From Glycomyces buryatensis (lineage in GTDB: Bacteria; Actinomycetota; Actinomycetes; Mycobacteriales; Micromonosporaceae): a DNA stretch of 64,000 nucleotides. Positions 38,003-51,484 of this stretch are shown here, piece after piece; the first letter of the stretch is position 1, and each line of letters opens with the position of its first letter. The DNA is taken from contig NZ_STGY01000029.1 in NCBI RefSeq assembly GCF_004912275.1, positions 1,259 through 65,258 on the forward strand. The letters run 5' to 3'. The notes under the pieces are model-generated. The model ran no database searches. It worked only from the letters and a program-made list of their open reading frames with translations, and was not told the origin of the DNA. The translations under genes and the position numbers were made by a program.

Positions 38003-38075
38003 AGGGGTGTGGCGCAATTGGCAGCGCAGCGGCCTCCAAAGCCGAAGGTTGCAGGTTCGATTCCTGTCACCCCTG
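38003..38075 (+). tRNA. tRNA-Trp (CCA)
   Basis: Acceptor arms AGGGGTG (38003-38009) and CACCCCT (38068-38074) pair. The anticodon loop is CTCCAAA with anticodon CCA, the T-loop is TTCGATTC and the discriminator is G. The 3' CCA is not encoded. It marks the border between conserved and accessory-looking sequence. Confidence 0.95.
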
Positions 38076-38091
38076 CAGATAGGCCGTAAGA

Positions 38092-38237: not shown

Positions 38238-38660
38238 ATGAGTGCGCCCGTCCAACTCACCGACGACCAACGCAAGCATCTTGATTTCATCCAGTCCTCG
38301 ATCGCACGGATGTCGAGCTCGTCGACGACCGTGAAAGGCTGGGGCATAACGGTTTCGATGACTGCATTCGGCCTGGCGGCGGCAGGGGCGATACCGCTGG
38401 TCTCGGTGCTGGGGCTGACGGCGATGGCCTTCTTCGGCTTCCTGGACTGCCGGTATCTGCGGGAGGAGCGCCTCTTCCGCGAGCTCTACAACGATGCGCG
38501 GCAGGGACTGGTGGAAACGTATTCGATGGACCGCAGCGCCTACCTGGGCCGCTGCCGTTGGCCCGCCGTCGTCAGATCCTGGTCCATCACCAGTTTCTAT
38601 GTCCCTTTAGCGCTGGTCGGCGGCGCTTCACTGACGTGGTCACTGGTCCAACCGGTGTAG
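38238..38660 (+). CDS. Two-helix membrane protein of unknown function
   Basis: A 140-residue protein. The N-terminal amphipathic region (HLDFIQSSIARMSSSSTTVKGW) is followed by two close transmembrane helices (residues about 40-75) and a charged segment (LREERLFRELYNDAR). A third hydrophobic stretch lies near the end. Proteins with the HLxFIQxxIxRM start are widespread and unassigned, and I recall them near defence genes, which is weak evidence. Its 3' end overlaps the convergent HIT gene by 64 bp. Confidence 0.75.
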   Translation: MSAPVQLTDDQRKHLDFIQSSIARMSSSSTTVKGWGITVSMTAFGLAAAGAIPLVSVLGLTAMAFFGFLDCRYLREERLFRELYNDARQGLVETYSMDRSAYLGRCRWPAVVRSWSITSFYVPLALVGGASLTWSLVQPV

Positions 38661-39288: not shown

Positions 39289-39792
39289 TTACTCACTCAC
39301 CGTCGCAGCCCACTCCTGCACCGGTTTGGTGCACGACTCCGAATCCGTGCCGCACTGGCCCTCGTTCCAGGCGTAGAACATCAACGCGGACAACAGGAGC
39401 ACGATGGCGATGTGGAGCCTTGCCAACTTCGTGAAGCCGGCCGAGAGGCTCCGGACACTGTTCAACGTCCAGTCCGCCGCCGACGCGATGGAATCGTCGA
39501 CGTTGCAGATCAACGTGGGCACCGGCTTGTCCGCGGCGCGAAACGCCACTGTCGGCACCACCAGGACCGTCAGAGCGGCACACGCCAGCCCCGTTGCGAC
39601 ACCCCGAAGCGCGTGGTCGAGAAGCTTGCTCGCCCAGATGACGCCCTTGCGGACCAACAGCACCATCACGAGCAGCAGGGCAACGGCGAACAGCGGCAGT
39701 CGCACCACCTCCGAGACTTCGGGCGGGAGCATCCCGACCGGAACGTCGACCAACGCGGCGAGCCGGTCGACCGAGGACGTCAGCATCTGCAC
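39289..39792 (-). CDS. Small multi-span membrane protein of the TIR operon
   Basis: A 167-residue protein with no recognised family. It has three hydrophobic helices (LPLFAVALLLVMVLLV, ATGLACAALTVLVVPTVAF and IAIVLLLSALMFYAW). The segment between helices 2 and 3 is about 30 residues, and the tail has two Cys (QCGTDSESC) that may form a disulfide outside. Its GTG start is 2 bp from the stop of the SPFH-like gene, so it is the last cistron of the four-gene TIR operon. A membrane effector or anchor role is inferred. Confidence 0.75.
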   Translation of the reverse strand: MQMLTSSVDRLAALVDVPVGMLPPEVSEVVRLPLFAVALLLVMVLLVRKGVIWASKLLDHALRGVATGLACAALTVLVVPTVAFRAADKPVPTLICNVDDSIASAADWTLNSVRSLSAGFTKLARLHIAIVLLLSALMFYAWNEGQCGTDSESCTKPVQEWAATVSE

Positions 39793-39794
39793 CG

Positions 39795-40730
39795 CTAGTC
39801 CCCGTCCTCTTCGGTCTTGGCACCTTTGGGGCCCTCGGCGTCCAGCGCCCGCCGCTCACCGGCCTCGATCGAACCCTTCGTCGGGCCGGGCGGCTCCAAG
39901 GTCTCCACCAGCGCCCTGGTCGTCGCGTCGACGAACTTGGCGGCCTGGCCCGAAGGGAACATCTCCTTCTCGGCCATGGTTTTCGCCAACTCGATGACGG
40001 CGGCTCGGCGAGTATTCGACCTGTCGATGGTCATGGCCGCCACCTCTCGGGCGCTCTCGGGATCGCTCGCGAGCAGATTGGCGATGGTCCCGTTGTCGCC
40101 CTGCTCAAGGACCTCCATGTACGCCTCCACGTTGCGCTTGTGGAGTTTGATCCGGTTCTCCTGGAGGGCCTCCTCCACGCGCGCCTTCAGCGGGTTGACG
40201 TCGAGGGTGGTGGCCGCATCGTGGTGTTCACGAGGGAGCCTGAGCCCGATCCTCGAGACGGTCATCCTGATGCCCTCTTCGAGGTCGAGCGCCTTGCCGT
40301 GGAACATGTCGTTGAGGCGGCTCTCGGCGTCCATCACCTCGAGTGGTTTGAAGCCGCGCGTGATCGTCGGCAGCTCGTCCAGCAGCCGCTGGCGGCAAAG
40401 GGCCTGCGCGTCATCGGCGGCTTCCCTGACGACCGTCGCGGGATCGCTGACCCGCCACTCGTAACTCGCGGTGAAGGTGAATTCGAGCGTCAAGGAGCAC
40501 GACGGCAGCGTGCCGGTGAACGAGTCGGTGTGCTTCGAGACGTCGACCACGAAGTACTCGCCGGGCCTGCGCCACAGCAGCTCGCCGTAGGTGAACGGCG
40601 AGGTCGTAGGGACCAGCCCCCCGTTTTGCAGCCGGTAGACCAGGGCGGTCCCGGGCGCTGGCGCCGGGCTGCCCCGGAAGCTGAAGCGGGAGATGGGTTG
40701 CCGATCTTTGATGGGGTTCATGTGGTTCAT
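39795..40730 (-). CDS. SPFH/Band7-like protein of the TIR operon
   Basis: A 311-residue protein. Residues about 30-160 show a Band7/SPFH-like pattern (PGEYFVVDVSKHTDSF, LTLEFTFTASYEWRVSDPATVV, LLDELPTITRGF). A charged helical region follows (ALQENRIKLHKRNVEAYMEV), then an acidic tail. SPFH proteins form ring-like membrane scaffolds. No transmembrane helix is visible, so anchoring may come from the downstream small membrane protein. Its start overlaps the stop of the large NTPase-like gene (ATGA). The family assignment is by pattern and moderately sure. Confidence 0.6.
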   Translation of the reverse strand: MNHMNPIKDRQPISRFSFRGSPAPAPGTALVYRLQNGGLVPTTSPFTYGELLWRRPGEYFVVDVSKHTDSFTGTLPSCSLTLEFTFTASYEWRVSDPATVVREAADDAQALCRQRLLDELPTITRGFKPLEVMDAESRLNDMFHGKALDLEEGIRMTVSRIGLRLPREHHDAATTLDVNPLKARVEEALQENRIKLHKRNVEAYMEVLEQGDNGTIANLLASDPESAREVAAMTIDRSNTRRAAVIELAKTMAEKEMFPSGQAAKFVDATTRALVETLEPPGPTKGSIEAGERRALDAEGPKGAKTEEDGD

Positions 40731-42931
40731 GCCTTCCGGTCGAGGATCGCTAGCAGGACGGCCGCGAAGTCGGGTGCGATGTGATCGTTGGTCCGCCAAT
40801 TCGTGGCGTGGAATCTCAGTTCGTCGCTCTCCATCGGACTCGGCGCCGCGTCCTGGCACAGTCGTGCCAAGGCGTTCCGCAGGGGCTCGGAACGCTCGGC
40901 GGCCGAGGCCCAATTGCGCAGGACCGCCCGGATGGCCCCGGCGAATCCGGGGGCGAGGAGAGCCGCTCCGAGCAGGCGCGCGATGCCCTCGCGCAGCGCG
41001 GGCGAGTCTCCGGAGTCCGCCAGCCAGAGCAGCAGCGGCCAACGCGACGTGCCGCTCCCGTCCTGAATGGTGATCTGGAGCCTGGCGCACTGGAGGAAGC
41101 TCGCCACCCCGGCTCGACGGCGGCCCGCGGATTGATCTTGGGCCCATTCGTCGATGAGGCGGACGAGCTCGGCTCGGCGTTCTGGGCCCGCCTCGGCGAT
41201 CAGTTCCCGGACGCTCAGTCCGATCGCCACGGCGAGCCCGCGATCGGCCTTCTTCGCCAGGCCCCCGAGCCGCTCGTCGGGGCCGCCGGGCATCGCGGGT
41301 CCGACGGCCGAGCCCAGCGCCCTCGTCGCGGCCATCCTCAGTGGTCGCGAATCGCTGCCGCACCAGTCCTTCACCAGGTCGATCACTTGAGAGGAATTCG
41401 CAGCGGATCCGACCAGCATCGACAGTGCCACGACCGCGTGTTCGCGCCGGTCGCCGCGGCCGCTCCTGGCCCAGCGGGCGATCACCTCGCGGCGGACGCG
41501 GGGAAAGTCGAACTGGCCGAGGTAGCCGATGGCCGCGGCCGCCCGAACCCCGGCGTCGATGCCGGAACCGGCGGTCATCGACTCCAGCCAAGGCAGCAGG
41601 AGATCGGCGTAGTCGTCGTATTCGCGCCACACGTAGTCGAGCACGCGGGTCGGGTATCCGGCGTCGATGAACTCGGCGACGGGGATCGCCGAGCGCCCCC
41701 GGCGCTGACGCGGTTCGCGGACCGACACGTGAGCCCGCGCCTGCACGAGCCGTTCGCTGCGGCGGGCCGGGCGATGCTTTCGTCCGGGCTGCGGTTCCTC
41801 TCCGTATTCCCCATTCCAGGCGCGCTGGAGCTTGGTCGCCGCGCGCCTGATGGTGTCGTACGGAGCGCCGTTGAACACCGACAGCGCGCAGACGGTCGTC
41901 ATCGTCTGCGAGTCGTCGGCGATGGCGTCGATCCATGCCTCGACGTCCCGGGTGGAGCGGTCCTCGAAGTTCGCCCGCGCGTCCTTGACCGTGCCGCGCC
42001 CGGCTGCGACGTCGGCGAGATCGTGGGCGAGAGCGACGAGCAGATGCGCGTCGAATCCGTCGGACTCCATGGTTCGGAGCCACTCCCCCAGACCCTCGGT
42101 TTCGAGCAGGCGACGAGTCTCCTCGGGGGCCTCGATGAGCTCGTTGAGGTGGTTCTCGACGAGTTCGTCGGCCGGCGGCGGGGATTCCAGGCGCAGCGCG
42201 AGGCGCTCGATGCCGTGGTCGAACAGCCTGGTGGAGTCGTCGATGATGACCACGGCCTTCGAATGGCGTTCTGCGAGTTGCTGCTCCATCCGCTTGAGGT
42301 CGAGTGAGCTGAGACCGGCGACCTGGTCCGGGGTGAGCGGGTCGACGATGAATCCGGCCCCCTCCGGGAGCTCCTCGATCGGCAGGGCCGTCAGCTCGGC
42401 TTCGAGCTTGACCTCGTAGATCGAGCGGAACTGCGCCAGCAGCCGGATGGCGGTGGTGGTGGCGCCCCAGCGAGGGTGGATGCGCGCGACCAGCAGGTCG
42501 CCGCCCCGCAGCCGTGCATCGAGGTCCGGGAAGCCGCTGGGGCGCACGAACACCCGCGAGATCCCGTCGAGGACGTACTGCGGAATCGGCGGGGCCAGTT
42601 CCGCAGTCTGCTCCTCCCGGCCGTAGTTGTTGATGTTGATGTCGCCTTGAGCGACCAGGGAGTCATTGATGGACCGGGCGTTGAAACGGTACTTCCTCGG
42701 GGACGTTTCGCCTCCGGTGCCGACCTTGCGGTAGGCCAGGTACGGGTCGAAGTTGCCCCGAGCCGCGGCGCGTGCGTAGTCGAGCTCGTCGACCTTCGCA
42801 GCGCGATCGTCGTCGTCGGCTTCGGTCAGGTCGAAGTCATCGTCGATGGCTGAGGCCAGCGGATCCCCTTGGGGCGCTGAGGTCGCCGCCGCCTCGTCGG
42901 TGCCGAACGGCTTAGCGGAATCGTCGGACAT
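40727..42931 (-). CDS. Large degenerate P-loop protein with HEAT-like repeats
   Basis: A 734-residue protein. An acidic N-terminus is followed by a QGDININNYG motif near residue 90. A P-loop-NTPase-like domain then has a Walker A position reading HPRWGATTTA (no GK[ST]) and a Walker B reading KAVVIIDDST. The C-terminal half has HEAT-like repeats (GVRAAAAIGYLGQFD, EHAVVALSMLVGSA, PLRMAATRALGSAV). This resembles inactive-STAND sensor proteins of bacterial conflict systems. ATG 42931 has AAGGAG 6 nt upstream; ATG 42937 overlaps that site. It overlaps the end of the TIR gene by 20 bp. Confidence 0.65.
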   Translation of the reverse strand: MSDDSAKPFGTDEAAATSAPQGDPLASAIDDDFDLTEADDDDRAAKVDELDYARAAARGNFDPYLAYRKVGTGGETSPRKYRFNARSINDSLVAQGDININNYGREEQTAELAPPIPQYVLDGISRVFVRPSGFPDLDARLRGGDLLVARIHPRWGATTTAIRLLAQFRSIYEVKLEAELTALPIEELPEGAGFIVDPLTPDQVAGLSSLDLKRMEQQLAERHSKAVVIIDDSTRLFDHGIERLALRLESPPPADELVENHLNELIEAPEETRRLLETEGLGEWLRTMESDGFDAHLLVALAHDLADVAAGRGTVKDARANFEDRSTRDVEAWIDAIADDSQTMTTVCALSVFNGAPYDTIRRAATKLQRAWNGEYGEEPQPGRKHRPARRSERLVQARAHVSVREPRQRRGRSAIPVAEFIDAGYPTRVLDYVWREYDDYADLLLPWLESMTAGSGIDAGVRAAAAIGYLGQFDFPRVRREVIARWARSGRGDRREHAVVALSMLVGSAANSSQVIDLVKDWCGSDSRPLRMAATRALGSAVGPAMPGGPDERLGGLAKKADRGLAVAIGLSVRELIAEAGPERRAELVRLIDEWAQDQSAGRRRAGVASFLQCARLQITIQDGSGTSRWPLLLWLADSGDSPALREGIARLLGAALLAPGFAGAIRAVLRNWASAAERSEPLRNALARLCQDAAPSPMESDELRFHATNWRTNDHIAPDFAAVLLAILDRKA

Positions 42932-43517
42932 TGACATCTCCTTGACTGAGGATCGAGTTTTTGACCCCTCCCTTGACGCGCATGGACCGGCGCTGGTCGA
43001 CGACCGTCGTCGCGGACGGCGATCCCCCGTTCGTCGAACCATCGGTCTGGGGCAGGGTCGGCACGAACCGCTTCATCTCGACCACCAGTGCCGCGAGGTC
43101 GGCCTCGGTGTGCTCCCGTCGCAGGCGCATCCGCTTCTTCCTTGCAAGCGCCGCGATGTCCTTCGGCAATTGGGGATCGGCCGGGAATTCAGCGCCGTCG
43201 AGTAGGACCGGCACCACGTGCAGGTTCCACTTGAACGCCTTGCGGACCTCCCATCGGACGAAGTCCTTCCAGTTGTCGAGCCGCCGGTTGCCGTCGATGT
43301 CCTTGACTTCGAACCAGTTGGGTCCGATCTCGACGATCAGGACCGTGCTCGCTCTGAGTCGCCGCCGGATCCGCTCGGGGACGTCGTCGCCCGCCTTGAC
43401 CGTTTCGGGGTCGAAGAACACGCGATCCTCACCGAAGACGGGGACCAGGCCCTTGTGGACCAAGGGTGCGGCGTAGCCGTCGTTCACGGCCCGGTAGCTG
43501 ATGAAGACTCCGCTCAT
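42912..43517 (-). CDS. TIR domain protein
   Basis: A 201-residue protein, first gene of the four-gene operon. The TIR domain (about residues 1-150) has GVFISYRAVN, FGEDRVFFDPETVKAGDD, VLIVEIGPNWF, and the helix DFVRWEVRKAF whose Glu aligns with the catalytic Glu of NAD-cleaving TIR domains. The C-terminus ends in NSILSQGDVNV, a motif echoed in the next protein (SLVAQGDINI), suggesting a shared contact. ATG 43517 has AAAGGAG 5 nt upstream. TIR effectors deplete NAD or make nucleotide signals in immunity; the role here is inferred. Confidence 0.88.
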   Translation of the reverse strand: MSGVFISYRAVNDGYAAPLVHKGLVPVFGEDRVFFDPETVKAGDDVPERIRRRLRASTVLIVEIGPNWFEVKDIDGNRRLDNWKDFVRWEVRKAFKWNLHVVPVLLDGAEFPADPQLPKDIAALARKKRMRLRREHTEADLAALVVEMKRFVPTLPQTDGSTNGGSPSATTVVDQRRSMRVKGGVKNSILSQGDVNVRRFR

Positions 43518-43665
43518 CAGCACTCCTTTCATCTCGGCACGCGAGGGGTCCAGGGCGCCGTCAGGCAACCTTGAAAGGAAAGTTCCCGAATAGAGATTCG
43601 GCCTGAGGTTGAGGTTGACTCCAATGACCTCGCGTGCAAATCTGGCCCGACGCTACATTCCTTAA

Positions 43666-43682
43666 TGAGCGCTTATCGCTCA
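43666..43682. promoter_or_regulatory. Palindrome TGAGCG-N5-CGCTCA
   Basis: A perfect 6-bp-arm palindrome in the divergent region between the TIR operon and the regulator gene. It is 16 bp before the chosen regulator start. TACATT at 43654-43659 is a possible -10 element. The palindrome is a candidate autoregulatory operator. Confidence 0.45.
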
Positions 43683-43697
43683 ACACCGGAGTCACCG

Positions 43698-44633
43698 ATG
43701 CCGGAACCGTCGTCGAAGCAGCACCAACGGAACACCAGTCTTTACCTCCAGGAACTCCTCGCCTCAGAGTCGTACTCCTTTCACTGGCGCCGCTACCCGA
43801 CTGAACGCCAGCGTCAGCTGCCCCGCATCTCGGTCGCCAGGGTTCTAGCCGGATACTTGCTGCGCAGGGGCGAGACATTCAACGAAAAGGGGATTCGCGA
43901 CAAGGTCTCGCGCGCGTTCAGCTCACGTGAACCGATCATTCCCGAGGACACGCTCAAACTGTTCATACAGGCGTTCGAGATCAGCGACATCGACGCCGAG
44001 ACGCTGCGAAAGCTTCGGCGCGGTGAGGGACTCCAGCGCGTGGCCGTCCGCGATCTGCCCGAACCGGAAAACGGCCTGCCTCCGCCTCCGCCGTATCAAA
44101 TCATCGGGCTCCGTGAATACCACTACATCGGATCTGACGGAAATCCGACAATCCATCGAACGATTCGCGATATCCGCTCGACGGCCGACCGCCTGGAATC
44201 CATTCGTTACACATTCGATACCGATCAGGTCGACGTCAAACAGATCAACGGCGGCACGCCCAGTGATCCCTACCTGCTGCCGAATGGACTCTCCACGGTT
44301 GACATAACCCTGCCGCGGCCACTCGGCATCGCCGATGATCACTCGATTGAATTCGTGACCCGATTCAAGAACCGCGAACTACTCGACCCGAACTTCCGTC
44401 GCGTGGCCCACCGGAGGATCGAGGGCCTGTCGATCCGCGTCGAGTTCCATCCCGAGTGTCTGCCCGCCAAGGTCTGGTGGGCCGAATGGAAGGACTACCG
44501 ACCCCCGAACGACGAGGTGATCAGCCGACAGCCGGTCGCTCTGGACGCGGAGCACGCCGTCTACCACCGCCTCCACGCCGCGGAACGCGCGGTGGTCGGT
44601 TTCGAGTGGGAGTTCAGCGGCTTGGAGGGCTAA
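43698..44633 (+). CDS. XRE-like regulator with conserved C-terminal domain
   Basis: A 311-residue protein divergent from the TIR operon. The N-terminal 110 residues are helical with an HTH-like element (ISVARVLAGYLLRRGETFNEKGIRDKV split by turns) and the segment TLKLFIQAFEIS. The C-terminal domain (residues 130-311) has LREYHYIGSDG, VDITLPRPLG and EFHPECLPAKVWWAEW. Streptomyces has similar unassigned proteins, as I recall. ATG 43698 has GGAG 6 nt upstream; ATG 43665 lies inside a palindrome. It probably regulates or senses for the TIR operon. Confidence 0.65.
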   Translation: MPEPSSKQHQRNTSLYLQELLASESYSFHWRRYPTERQRQLPRISVARVLAGYLLRRGETFNEKGIRDKVSRAFSSREPIIPEDTLKLFIQAFEISDIDAETLRKLRRGEGLQRVAVRDLPEPENGLPPPPPYQIIGLREYHYIGSDGNPTIHRTIRDIRSTADRLESIRYTFDTDQVDVKQINGGTPSDPYLLPNGLSTVDITLPRPLGIADDHSIEFVTRFKNRELLDPNFRRVAHRRIEGLSIRVEFHPECLPAKVWWAEWKDYRPPNDEVISRQPVALDAEHAVYHRLHAAERAVVGFEWEFSGLEG

Positions 44634-44950
44634 CTGCGTCACTAGCACGGCACTGTTCGACCTGATCGACCTGGTCACCTACGAGGCCGGTTCGACCGGG
44701 ATAGAGACCGCAACGAGGTCATGCACGGCCCTCACCTGCAGGTACAGGTTCCCGTAGGCCTCGATGAGGCCTGCAAGTCTCTGAATAGGGAAAACGTCCC
44801 CGGTTTCGATCACAGGATCGAGACCAGGGGCGTTTCTTTTGATCCATAGGTAAGCGATTACATGCGGCCGTACGCGGCTGATGGCGAAATATCGCGGCTG
44901 GTACGCGGCTCGGCAATCCGGCCTGTCTATGTGGACAGACGCCGACTCCT
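44634..44950. other. Gene-free region with a possible gene fragment
   Basis: A minus-strand frame ending at 44679 reads like a protein C-terminus (GDVFPIQRLAGLIEAYGNLY) but has no start before the IS110 remnant. It may be the tail of a gene cut by that element. The rest shows nothing. Confidence 0.25.
44792..44840 (+). terminator. Intrinsic terminator downstream of the regulator
   Basis: AAACG and CCCCGGTTTCGATC pair with GATCGAGACC and GGGGCGTTT around ACAG, followed by CTTTT. It lies 159 bp past the regulator stop. Confidence 0.65.
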
Positions 44951-45457
44951 CTGCCAGCCCGTTCCCGACTTGCGCGAGCGACTGCGCGGCCGGGCCGGCC
45001 GCGAGCTCGTCGCCGTCCTGGCCCGAACCCGCCCCGCCGGCGATCCGGCCGATCCCCAAACGGCGCACCGCATCGCGCTGGGCCGCCTGGCTCGCCGCTA
45101 TCAGGCCCTGGACGTCGAGATCAAGGAGGCCGACACCGAGATCCGGGCCCTGGTCGCCGGGGCCGCTCCGGATCTTCTGGAGCTGCCCGGGCTCGGCCCC
45201 GAGACCGCCGGACAACTGCTGACCAGCGCCGGCGACAACCCCGACCGGCTCCGTTCCGAGGCCGCGTTCGCCCACCTCTGCGGAGCCGCACCGGTCCCGG
45301 CCTCCTCCGGACGCACCAACCGGCACCGGCTCAATCGCGGCGGTGACCGCGCTGCGAACAACGCCCTACACACCATCGTGCTGGTCCGCATGAAATACGA
45401 CCAGCACACCCGCGACTACGTCGCACGACGCACCCTCCAAGGCATGACCAAATCAGC
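44950..45457 (+). pseudogene. IS110-family transposase remnant
   Basis: The frame contains the middle and C-terminal (Transposase_20) parts of an IS110 enzyme: ELVAVLARTRPAGDPADP, LLELPGLGPETAGQLL, LCGAAPVPASSGRTNRHRLN and GGDRAANNALHTIVLVRMKY. The N-terminal RuvC-like DEDD half is missing, and the similarity stops at GMTK (45457). No intact ends were found, so it is an old fragment. Confidence 0.85.
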
Positions 45458-45579
45458 GTCCGCAGCGTCAGACGCGTGGTTCGGGACTCCAGCGGCCGCG
45501 GCGCCGTTATCGGTCGCCCGGAGCCCGCCGCTGGAACCGCTCGAAGGGCACGCGGTCGAAAATGAAGCGGCTGGCGGTG

Positions 45580-46443
45580 TCAGGCGGTCGTCGAGCTGTG
45601 TTCGGGCGCCGACCAGGAGCCGAGGAGGCGGAGCGCTTCGTGTGATGCGGTGCCGGGTTCGGCCGACCACAGGACCAGTTGCTGGTCGGGATCGCCGGTG
45701 TGGGCGAACATGTCCCAGTTGAGGGTCATCTCGCCGACCACGGGGTGGTCGATTGCCTTGGTACAGATGCTCTTAGTGGCGACTTGGTGCTCGGCCCACC
45801 AGCGACGGAAGTCGTTGTCCTGCACCGAAAGCTCGCCGACGAGGGCGGCCAGCGCGGGGTCGTCGGGGTGTTCGGCGGCCTCCAGGCGCAGGTGGGCGAC
45901 GCTGTAGCGGGCGATGAGCTCCCAGTCTTTGAAGAACTCGCGGGAGCCGGGCTCGCTGAACAGGAGCCGCACGTAGTTGCGGCGTTCGGGCGGCATCGTC
46001 GCGAAGTCGCCGATGAGGGCCGCGGCGAGGGCGTTCCAGGCGAGGATGTCCATGCGTCGGCCGAAGATGACGGCCGGGACGTCGGTGAGCTGGTCGAGGA
46101 GGCGCTGGAGCTGCGGCCGGACCTTCTGGGCAGTGCGGCGCCTGGGGCGGGCCGTCTGTTTTCCCGCGAGTTTGAACAGGTAGGCACGCTGGACCTCATC
46201 GAGGCGCAGCACGCGGGCGAGCGCCGTCAGGACGGGCGCGGAGGCGTTGATGCGGCCCTGCTCGAGCCGCGTGTAGTAGTCGTTGCTGATGGCGGCCAGC
46301 TGCGCGACCTCCTCGCGGCGCAGGCCCGGGACACGTCGCACGGCGGCGGTCCCAGGGAGTCCGACAGTCTCAGGGGTGAGTTCGGCGCGGCGGGCCTTGA
46401 GGAACTCGCCGAGTTCGTTGAGGTGCGGGTCGCTGCCGGTCAT
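45580..46443 (-). CDS. MmyB-like XRE transcription regulator
   Basis: A 287-residue regulator. The N-terminal HTH has VPGLRREEVAQLAAIS then YYTRLEQGR, characteristic of the MmyB family. The C-terminal ligand-binding MmyB domain holds DILAWNALAAALIGDF and NYVRLLFSEPGSREFF. Members usually repress an adjacent divergent oxidoreductase gene and respond to fatty-acid-like ligands. The neighbour at 46606 is an aldo/keto reductase in that divergent position. Confidence 0.92.
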   Translation of the reverse strand: MTGSDPHLNELGEFLKARRAELTPETVGLPGTAAVRRVPGLRREEVAQLAAISNDYYTRLEQGRINASAPVLTALARVLRLDEVQRAYLFKLAGKQTARPRRRTAQKVRPQLQRLLDQLTDVPAVIFGRRMDILAWNALAAALIGDFATMPPERRNYVRLLFSEPGSREFFKDWELIARYSVAHLRLEAAEHPDDPALAALVGELSVQDNDFRRWWAEHQVATKSICTKAIDHPVVGEMTLNWDMFAHTGDPDQQLVLWSAEPGTASHEALRLLGSWSAPEHSSTTA

Positions 46444-48619: not shown

Positions 48620-49679
48620 ATGCCAACGCTGGACATGAGGACGGCCGTCGTGATCATTGTTGTTGTGACGCAACTGAAGAGCACGACGGCCGTTGAATTG
48701 AGTGTAGCCGTGGAACGGTGGCGGGAGGGCCTGGACGCGCTGCTGGCCCGGACTGCTCCGGCATTTCGCCGCATCGAAACCCGTCTGAACGCGAAGCGCC
48801 TGGTGAATGCGTTGATGGCGCATCTGGAACGGCGGAACTGCTGGACGCTTGCCGAGCAGGCCGGCGAGGCCGGACCGTGGCGGTTCCAGCACCTGCTCTC
48901 CCGCGCGAAGTGGAACGATGCCCAGGTCCGCAGCGAGTTCCGGGCCTACGTGTCCGAGCACTTGAACACAGTCGGCGGCCTGCGGGTCCTCGCCGTCGAC
49001 GAGACCGGCGATGTCAAGAAAGGCGCATCGACGGTCGGGGTGCAGCGGCAGTGCTCGGGGACCGCGGGCCGGATCGAGAACTGCCAGCTGGCCGTCTACC
49101 TCGCCCTCGCCACGCAGGCCGGGCACGCGGCGGTCGATGGGCGCCTCTATCTGCCGAAAGTGTGGGCTGACGATGCTCAGCGGCGTGAGAGAGCCGGAGT
49201 ACCTGAGGACGTCGTGTTCGCGACCAAGCCCGAGTTGGCCGCCGACATGATCGAGGCCGCGCTCGACGCGGGCATCGCTGCGGACTTCGCGACCGGCGAT
49301 GAGGCCTATGGCATCAACTCCGGTGGACGCCGGTCACCGTCGCCGGAATGCGCTGGAGGATCGAAGAATCGTTCCAGGGCGCGAAGGAACTCGCCGCGCT
49401 CGATGAGCACCAGGTGAGGACCTGGACCTCCTGGCACCGGTGGGTCACCTCGCCATGCTCGCCTACGGCTTCCTCGCCATCACCCGCACCACCGAGGACA
49501 CCGAGACCGAACCGGACATGATCGCCTTGACCTGCAACGAGATCCGCCACCTCCTGGCCAGCGAAGCAGCGCCGCGGATCGGCTGGGAGCATCGCCTCCG
49601 CTGGTCGACCTGGCGACGCCGCCACCAGGCCACCGCCAAACGACTGCATTACCAGCGGCAACACACCCTCGCCGCATGA
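48620..49679 (+). pseudogene. IS701-family transposase, fragmented
   Basis: The N-terminal and central parts (to 49314) are recognisable: RLNAKRLVNALMAHLERRNC, the catalytic region VLAVDETGDVKKGASTVG, RIENCQLAVYLAL and GDEAYG. Then a deletion and frameshift occur. The catalytic-Glu region AGMRWRIEESFQGAKELAAL continues in another frame (49330 on), and a second shift near 49440 leads to the C-terminus (LAMLAYGFLAITRT). It is non-functional as it stands. Confidence 0.88.
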
Positions 49680-50433: not shown

Positions 50434-50826
50434 TCAGTTGGCGAGTTTCTTGTAGCAGGTGAGGGCTGCTGCGAGGGCGAGGAATGCGGCGAAGAGGCGG
50501 CCGTGGCGTTCGTATCGGATGGTGAGACGACGATAGCCGCCGAGCCAGGAGATGGTGCGTTCGACGGCCCAGCGGTGGCGGCTGAGCCGGGCGGAGGACT
50601 CGATGCTGCGGCGGGCGATGCGGTCGCCGATCCGGCGTTCGCGCAGGGCCCGGTGGCAGTCGGGGATGTCGTAAGCCTTGTCCGCGTGCAGCTTCGCCGG
50701 CTTGCGGCGCCTGGGCCCGCGCCGCGACTTGATCTTCGGGATCCCCTGCCCCAACGGTTCGAGGGCTTGCGAATCATGGAGGTTAGCCGCTGAGACGCCG
50801 AGCGAGAGCGGCAGGCCTGATCGGTC
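50434..50826 (-). pseudogene. IS5-family transposase C-terminal remnant
   Basis: The last 130 residues of the chimeric frame match an IS5-type enzyme: LSLGVSAANLHDSQALEPL, the second catalytic Asp in LHADKAYD, and the catalytic Glu in RWAVERTISWLGGYRRL. GAGCGTGTCTCA just downstream (about 50424) resembles an IS5 terminal repeat. The N-terminal half is absent and is replaced, in frame, by ISAs1 sequence. Confidence 0.82.
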
Positions 50827-51484
50827 GGTGAGGTTGCGGAAGGCGGTCAGGGCACGGGATGCGGAGTCGGTCCGGGTCCGGCACGCGTCTTCACGGAAGG
50901 CGATGTCTCTGACCAGGTGGGACCTGTTCTCTATGGTCCAATGTCCCCGGATGAGTACGGCGAGATCGGCCGGGTCGGCTTGGTGGGCGTCGAGGCTGGT
51001 GACGGCGCGGGGGAACAGCAGCTGCCCGAGCGCGGGGTCGATGCCGCAGGTCTTGATCGGGCGTGACTCGCTGCGCCCGTGGCCGGTCTCGGGGTTGTCT
51101 TCGGTGAGCGAGTGGCGCGCGGCCAGCCAGGCGGATACGGCCCGATCCAGTGCTTCGGTGTCGATGCGGCGCAGTACCGCCGTCAGGCACCCGCGCGAGG
51201 GCGCGGTACGGGTTCGGAGCGGATGGCGACGCACTCGCAGCGCGGCCAGAACCTCGGCCGGGGCGTCGGCGACCCATTCGGCGATCTCGGCCGGGCTCGA
51301 CCGACCCGCCAGCACCGCCGCGGCACACGGCCAGCACGGACCCGATCGGGTGCCACCGGCCCTGCCGCCCACGCGGGTCGGGCACCCACGACAGGTACTC
51401 CCGCAGGTCGGGCAGCTCGTCGAGTTGGAGCGGCCCCACCGCCGACAAGGATTCGAGGACACAGGAAGATACCGGAGCGGGCAT
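50827..51484 (-). pseudogene. ISAs1-family transposase remnant
   Basis: The N-terminus (ATG 51484; ELPDLREYLSWVPDPRGRQG) is in one frame. A frameshift near 51330 leads into ADAPAEVLAALRVRRHPLR, TEALDRAVSAWLAARHSL, HGRSESRPIKTC and GHWTIENRSHLVRD. The central catalytic segment of a normal ISAs1 enzyme is missing. The remnant joins the IS5 fragment at 50826. Confidence 0.82.

Follow-up and report, generated by a model that had tools for sequence, protein, structure and literature searches.

In the amyloid-signaling NLR pairs, adjacent genes encode an effector and a receptor with a matching motif of 20-40 amino acids, located at the C-terminus of the effector and at the N-terminus of the receptor, and pairs with BASS motifs occur mainly in actinobacteria and cyanobacteria, with TIR among the rarer effectors, according to the available parts of the published accounts (PMC7889193, PMC8086366). 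In the EAD-coupled systems, a second copy of the adaptor is found on the neighboring effector and is more alike within the pair, and the enzymes of the EAD and MoxR-vWA systems include cyclic nucleoside monophosphate (cNMP) cyclases, nucleoside phosphorylases and TIR, with Band7 and HEAT as superstructure domains, as far as the accessible portions of these sources go (PMC7159879, PMC8195603). Here, we analyzed a window of 64,000 nucleotides (the whole stretch of DNA considered) from Glycomyces buryatensis, which harbors an operon of four genes encoding a TIR protein, a HEAT protein, an SPFH protein and a small membrane protein (Table 1). On balance, the data favor a receptor-effector signaling operon of the conflict or immune type, in which a homotypic tag would couple the enzyme to the HEAT receptor on an SPFH platform.

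Comparison with the described systems shows a likeness to the BASS and other amyloid NLR pairs, namely matching short motifs on adjacent effector and receptor. The receptor of the window differs in having no recognisable NB-ARC or NACHT domain, in carrying HEAT repeats and in being nearly always accompanied by an SPFH neighbor in related loci, where the commonest enzymes are cyclase-like and TIR rather than Bell. Since the HEAT receptor has no NB-ARC/NACHT match, the system is not classed as a member of this group. The paired adaptor of the HEAT loci, a short tag of ~25 residues, is probably no EAD domain, which would set them apart from the EAD systems as described there, and the HEAT-SPFH core pair is not among the EAD and MoxR-vWA systems covered by those portions (PMC7159879, PMC8195603). 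Likewise, none of the four proteins has a MoxR or vWA Pfam match, in contrast to the MoxR-vWA ternary systems, and vWA was found in one sub-branch of the related loci only. By analogy, the working logic may resemble that of the amyloid-motif NLR pairs or EAD coupling, but with a receptor that is no recognisable NLR.

The evidence that carries this reading comes from the ends of the proteins. The last ~25 residues of the protein encoded ahead of the HEAT gene (the head) resemble, locus by locus, a segment close to where the adjoining HEAT protein begins, and this cognate matching is demonstrated statistically. Among 46 head/receptor pairs (27 in a first run), the tag alignment score averaged 43.3 for cognate and 27.4 for non-cognate combinations; after removal of row and column means the residual was 15.6, with a permutation standard deviation of 0.97, and 0 of 20,000 permutations reached the observed matching, either overall or within the TIR heads (17) and the cyclase heads (22). 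No cognate excess was seen for three control segments, one in the head (75-120 residues before its C-terminus) and two elsewhere in the HEAT protein. The tags are enriched in Gly (2.6x) and Asn (3.8x) and poor in Leu. A score of at least 40 was reached by 22 of the 46 pairs; in these, identical residues used the same codon at 147 of 280 positions against 152.4 expected, and since codon sharing is no higher than codon usage predicts, the likeness is old and kept at the protein level. When compared with a single BASS3 peptide from published experiments (PMC8086366, Table 2), the two tags of the window gave shuffle p values of 0.023 and 0.033, which is marginal. As a separate observation, a 736-amino acid neighbor in another locus (L130:9050-11260) starts with an N-terminal motif that resembles, by eye, a RHIM/BASS3-type tag.

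The genes of the operon had been reported in a preliminary description made from the sequence of the window, and its observation of the locus was partly confirmed. All four are real genes of the minus strand and lie at the coordinates given there, each also predicted by a codon-usage gene caller (two runs of which placed the SPFH start at 40721 and 40730, respectively), and they overlap or abut as had been stated: TIR and HEAT genes share 20 bases, HEAT and SPFH genes share 4, and a gap of 2 bases separates the SPFH and membrane protein genes. The codons of the TIR tail thus run across the start of the downstream HEAT gene. Co-occurrence elsewhere had been set beforehand as a test that could refute the proposal, and the genes were found to recur together across genera. 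HEAT-protein relatives were detected in 25 and SPFH relatives in 16 of 151 related genomes, counting the window genome in both cases, and in a sample of 200 genomes of the order the HEAT profile matched 25 (window genome counted); a phylum-wide draw of 149 genomes gave the window genome and one weak partial match. Presence is patchy even within the genus (4/22 genomes). We read 54 neighborhoods besides the window (cited below by L numbers), with 49 full-length HEAT genes among them, and an SPFH-type gene lies next downstream in 43 of these 49 loci (38 plain SPFH, 5 SPFH-vWA fusions). The exact four-gene set occurs in five loci, four of them headed by TIR (the window, L048, L050 and L113) and one, L049, by a nucleoside phosphorylase that scores 69.4 bits for PF01048, and these five form one clade in a quick tree (support of 100 in the Shimodaira-Hasegawa-like approximate likelihood ratio test, SH-aLRT). 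A plasmid of Streptomyces angustmyceticus shows the gene order regulator-TIR-HEAT-SPFH-OmpA, its two core genes being annotated as 'hypothetical protein'. PADLOC (2023), the only defense library scanned, matched neither the HEAT protein of the window nor its SPFH and membrane proteins.

Some variants of the locus were also observed. A sub-branch (L052, L055, L057, L058) has SPFH-vWA fusions and/or extra vWA and PP2C-like genes downstream, while in two TIR-headed loci a hydrophobic-looking protein of 123 amino acids replaces the SPFH gene (L131:8372-8743, L132:4372-4743). The window genome itself holds a second, divergent and distant HEAT locus (L127:5368-7710), headed by a 176-amino acid protein of no assigned family and including a 255-amino acid protein that, by eye, may be a diverged SPFH.

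Table 1. Positions of the operon, its protein features and neighboring elements in the window.
Feature	Position	Strand	Basis or remark
Four-gene operon	43517 to 39289	minus	TIR protein, 734-residue HEAT protein, SPFH protein, three-hydrophobic-region protein
TIR protein, 201 amino acids, predicted effector enzyme (putative NAD hydrolase)	42912..43517	minus	Pfam TIR_2, SARM1 relation
C-terminal tag of TIR protein, VKNSILSQGDVNVRRF	42918..42965	minus	N-terminal region of its own neighbor is the best alignment, rank 1/46
HEAT protein, 734 amino acids, with atypical P-loop, predicted receptor/scaffold	40727..42931	minus	Homologues; HEAT-type solenoid by fold
Cognate N-terminal tag of HEAT protein, INDSLVAQGDININNY	42623..42670	minus	Cognate-pair alignment
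P-loop-like stretch HPRWGATTTA	42449..42478	minus	Gly invariant, Lys replaced
Helical HEAT-type solenoid, residues about 460-695	40847..41554	minus	Predicted model and Foldseek
SPFH (Band 7-like) protein, 311 amino acids, alternative start 40721	39795..40730	minus	Profile-profile comparison and fold
SPFH domain proper, residues 24-170	40221..40661	minus	hhalign aligned range; Foldseek SPFH matches about 56-169
Protein of 167 amino acids, hydrophobic regions about 24-58, 61-87 and 116-142, predicted SPFH membrane anchor	39289..39792	minus	
Divergent gene, possible regulator, start 43665 or 43698	43665..44633	plus	No family assigned
tRNA-Trp, bounding on the left the variable region in which the system lies	38003..38076	plus	
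Insertion sequence remains, IS110-type	44862-45722		Right side only
Insertion sequence remains, DDE	48620-49417 and 50434-51315		Right side only

The enzyme at the head of the locus is exchanged between loci. By family label, the gene ahead of the 49 HEAT genes is cyclase-like in 22 cases, TIR in 17 and other in 7, with no same-strand neighbor in 3, and the head of L113 adds an 18th TIR locus. The quick tree requires 6 TIR/cyclase changes, and with all labels tabulated, branches with SH-aLRT of at least 95 force at least 5. In profile comparison, the cyclase-like heads matched PF00211 proteins (Prob 94.8 and a score of 56.1, with 30 shuffles reaching at most 16.2) and retain two Asp residues, in 20 and 21 of the 22 heads, which we take to have a metal role. 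No cyclase match was obtained for the heads of L070 and L118 (Pfam and PADLOC) and of L052 (PADLOC), and the head of L075 is of the transcription-factor type (BTAD, Trans_reg_C).

The neighboring regulators vary along with the enzyme. At a distance of at most five genes, 18 of 22 cyclase loci have a relative of a Crp-type cNMP-binding regulator, compared with none of 18 TIR loci and none of 9 other loci (Fisher p 7e-8 for cyclase versus TIR), and relatives of the L118 PycTM protein show a similar distribution (10/22, 0/18 and 0/9). Conversely, NsdA-type regulator relatives accompany 12 of 18 TIR loci, 3 of 9 others and none of 22 cyclase loci, the NsdA-family member of L117 scoring 143.6 bits (cut-off 75). 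Pfam confirmed two PycTM proteins (PF18967) and one Crp protein, all above cut-off. The window locus belongs to none of the Crp, PycTM and NsdA neighbor sets. Such tracking of reader type and enzyme type would be expected of head enzymes that actively produce signals, with the reader chosen to fit the messenger. In this respect the cyclase-headed sister loci, with their PycTM relatives and PF00211-like heads, approach Pycsar, but their cyclase-like enzymes would be wired to a HEAT-SPFH core, and the window locus itself showed no cyclase match in the five proteins scanned. The tags, the enzyme swapping and the cyclase, Pycsar-like branch, all missed by the preliminary description, hold most of the mechanistic information.

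The TIR identity of the first gene product was upheld by Pfam (TIR_2, 32.2 bits, cut-off 28). The best solved relatives of its profile are SARM1 NAD hydrolases (E 5.5e-15), its D-x-V-x-x-E stretch pairs in alignment with DWVHKE of SARM1, whose Glu is catalytic, and Glu90 is unchanged across 10 of 10 aligned TIR heads. With a TIR fold and the Glu of this stretch, the protein has the sequence features of TIR NAD hydrolases, and it may be expected to cleave NAD. Its resemblance to Thoeris is weak, both for ThsB (PADLOC E 1.7e-4; ThcB4 E 0.036) and for ThsB_TIR (16.9 bits, below the cut-off of 21.2), and no ThsA match was found in the five proteins scanned.

The HEAT protein had been characterized as STAND-like, with HEAT-like repeats and a P-loop lacking the Walker A Lys. 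The missing Lys holds true for the window and for most of the family: the Gly is present in 46 of 46 rows and the following position is R in 35, K in 6 (the window not among them), A in 2, G in 2 and S in 1. The family at large departs from the Walker A Lys of STAND and NLR proteins, and the P-loop is probably non-hydrolysing. The STAND assignment draws weak support from a profile match to AAA_16 that spans 18 columns of the P-loop (Prob 40 and a score of 32.9 versus at most 16.1 in 30 shuffles), and Pfam gave no NB-ARC or NACHT match up to E 1 in the window protein or up to E 0.01 in 12 family members. The repeats fell below the Pfam threshold (23.2 bits, cut-off 27.7) and were recovered by fold, as a confident helical solenoid (pLDDT 60-90 as ten-residue means) within a model of mean pLDDT 50.3 and pTM 0.43. 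Foldseek placed HEAT/ARM proteins on top (CAND1, the PP2A A subunit and karyopherin, best E 6.5e-4), with low TM-scores because the remainder of the model is poor. A sensor role is suggested for this protein.

For the SPFH-like protein, the initial call was backed by profile-profile comparison and by fold. In hhalign, the family matched Band_7 with Prob 90.5 and a score of 49.6, compared to at most 21.5 in 40 column shuffles and at most 26.3 for five other families, and Foldseek retrieved HflK/C and stomatin (prob 0.93-1.00 among the top 15 matches). Like the SPFH scaffolds stomatin, HflK/C, prohibitin and QmcA-YbbJ (a pairing taken from the title of a database entry), it has this fold and a gene for a membrane protein beside its own gene, but it differs in that none of its segments is strongly hydrophobic and in lying below Pfam detection, with zero Band_7 matches among 19 family members. 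The proposed three-helix membrane protein does show three hydrophobic regions, and its homologues come immediately after the SPFH gene in L048, L049, L050 and L113 and adjoin it in L065-L067. The SPFH protein is a candidate membrane platform, and its complex and membrane location are predictions. Pairs of SPFH and membrane protein without a HEAT gene were also observed, beside Trypsin_2 proteins with NACHT-type matches (L065:5462-6705, L066:5499-6472).

The preliminary description had proposed that the large protein senses a trigger and activates a TIR NADase on an SPFH membrane scaffold, an interpretation that is partly supported and that can now be extended. The HEAT protein would sit with an SPFH oligomer held at the membrane by the three-helix protein. 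Upon sensing of a trigger by the HEAT solenoid, the receptors may cluster and expose the N-terminal tag, which would recruit and align the effector through its C-terminal tag by a homotypic beta-type contact, possibly of amyloid or beta-solenoid form. The clustered TIR domains could then become active and cleave NAD, leading to NAD loss or to an ADP-ribose-type signal. Sister loci would use the same wiring for other tagged outputs, namely a BTAD protein, a nucleoside phosphorylase or an enzyme resembling nucleotidyl cyclases, the last in most cases accompanied by a cNMP-binding regulator and frequently by PycTM.

Several observations weigh against this reading of the operon. First rank is reached by only 15 of the 46 cognate pairs, and a place among the best three by 28. 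One of the 15, L058, aligns through a stretch rich in Pro, Gly and Ala and of low complexity instead of the tag, no convincing tag emerged from the alignment in some loci (L060, L119, L126), a later pair from the Streptomyces plasmid ranks 6/47 and 8/47, and the permutation statistics ignore the relatedness of the loci. For the whole set, similarity to amyloid motifs is near chance, with 7 of 92 tags at 0.05 against one BASS3 peptide. Furthermore, the SPFH model is moderate only (mean pLDDT 56, pTM 0.37), the N-terminal half of the HEAT-protein model is of low confidence, the P-loop/STAND relation depends on only 18 columns, and P0001, among the scanned window proteins, reaches no family cut-off. 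Could the matching then be a matter of composition, arising by chance or from lineage-shared low-complexity tails and not from pairing? The Gly/Asn richness of the tags and the L058 alignment would suit this, but it is highly improbable given the removal of row and column means, the empty permutation tails overall and per enzyme class, and the controls without excess. A weightier, though doubtful, account holds that the tags are ordinary beta modules of dimers or trimers serving constitutive assembly, for example as beta-solenoid caps, with neither a triggered nor an amyloid contact. Many of them show a repetitive Gly/Asn/Ala pattern, which we liken to short beta-roll repeats, and the near-chance similarity to amyloid motifs agrees with it; against it, tag placement at the effector C-terminus and the receptor N-terminus, in adjacent genes, is that of the amyloid-signaling NLR pairs in the available part of their description (PMC7889193).

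A defense role of the system is suggested by its parts and distribution, and the same parts may be read as stress or developmental signaling, in which the second messenger of the tagged enzyme is read by the neighboring regulator and genes are switched without cell suicide. The Crp-type DNA-binding cNMP receptors beside most cyclase loci (one member Pfam-checked), the NsdA-family relatives near TIR and some other loci and the transcription-factor head of L075 all speak for such a role, which we nevertheless consider unlikely, since PycTM, a Pycsar effector according to Pfam, has relatives in nearly half of the cyclase loci, the patchy presence and variable location suit defense, and the TIR is of the SARM1 type. 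Returning to the immune reading, its broadest form is a widespread, undescribed actinobacterial immune signalosome, composed of a HEAT receptor, an SPFH platform, a sequence-coded beta handshake and an exchangeable output, either an enzyme of nucleotide signaling (TIR, cyclase, phosphorylase) or a transcription factor, with a reader fitting the messenger; we put this forward tentatively, at just under an even chance. If true, receptors would control a branch of Pycsar-like cyclases by way of an amyloid-like adaptor carried by something other than a classical NLR. The loci also represent a natural effector-swapping experiment, since one receptor-platform core maintains a matching tag for enzymes of unrelated folds, and effector choice and activation by bacterial receptors thus become testable by swaps of short tags. 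To our knowledge, SPFH proteins have seldom been linked to immunity in bacteria, and these results suggest that TIR and cyclase signaling uses them as membrane platforms; the SPFH and membrane protein platform may serve other receptors too.

Regarding the genomic setting, insertion sequence debris had been reported on both sides of the operon, and it is present on the right side only; a HIT gene and tRNA-Trp occupy the left. The tRNA-Trp comes after metQ in all 12 Glycomyces congeners fetched (from 20 other genomes with a metQ match), and past it the gene content differs from the window in all 12: none has a gene there matching the operon, and three have one gene each that matches some other window gene. 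The HEAT relatives of the three congeners that have one (G004, G011, G017) lie on a different contig from metQ. A tRNA-Trp edge with variable content and transposase remains on the right suits a variable island, and the site is likely an insertion hotspot of the genus.

The gene divergent to the operon had been taken for an XRE-like regulator, a label that was not confirmed by the family searches, which gave no significant Pfam or NCBIfam family. In G. paridis, a homologue is found at the equivalent position and is likewise divergent (L050:5074-5991). The operator-like palindrome described next to it exists (43666-43682, 6-base arms), but of 300 shuffles 34 gave at least as many as the two such repeats present in this 210-base stretch (shuffle mean 0.49); it is not present in the G. 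paridis counterpart, which has other short repeats. Finally, a plus-strand gene at 38238-38660 encodes a 140-amino acid protein with one hydrophobic region and no Pfam or NCBIfam family, possibly an accessory gene of the system, and its only homologue in the set (L048:2756-3223, E 1e-13) lies beside the four-gene system in another genus.

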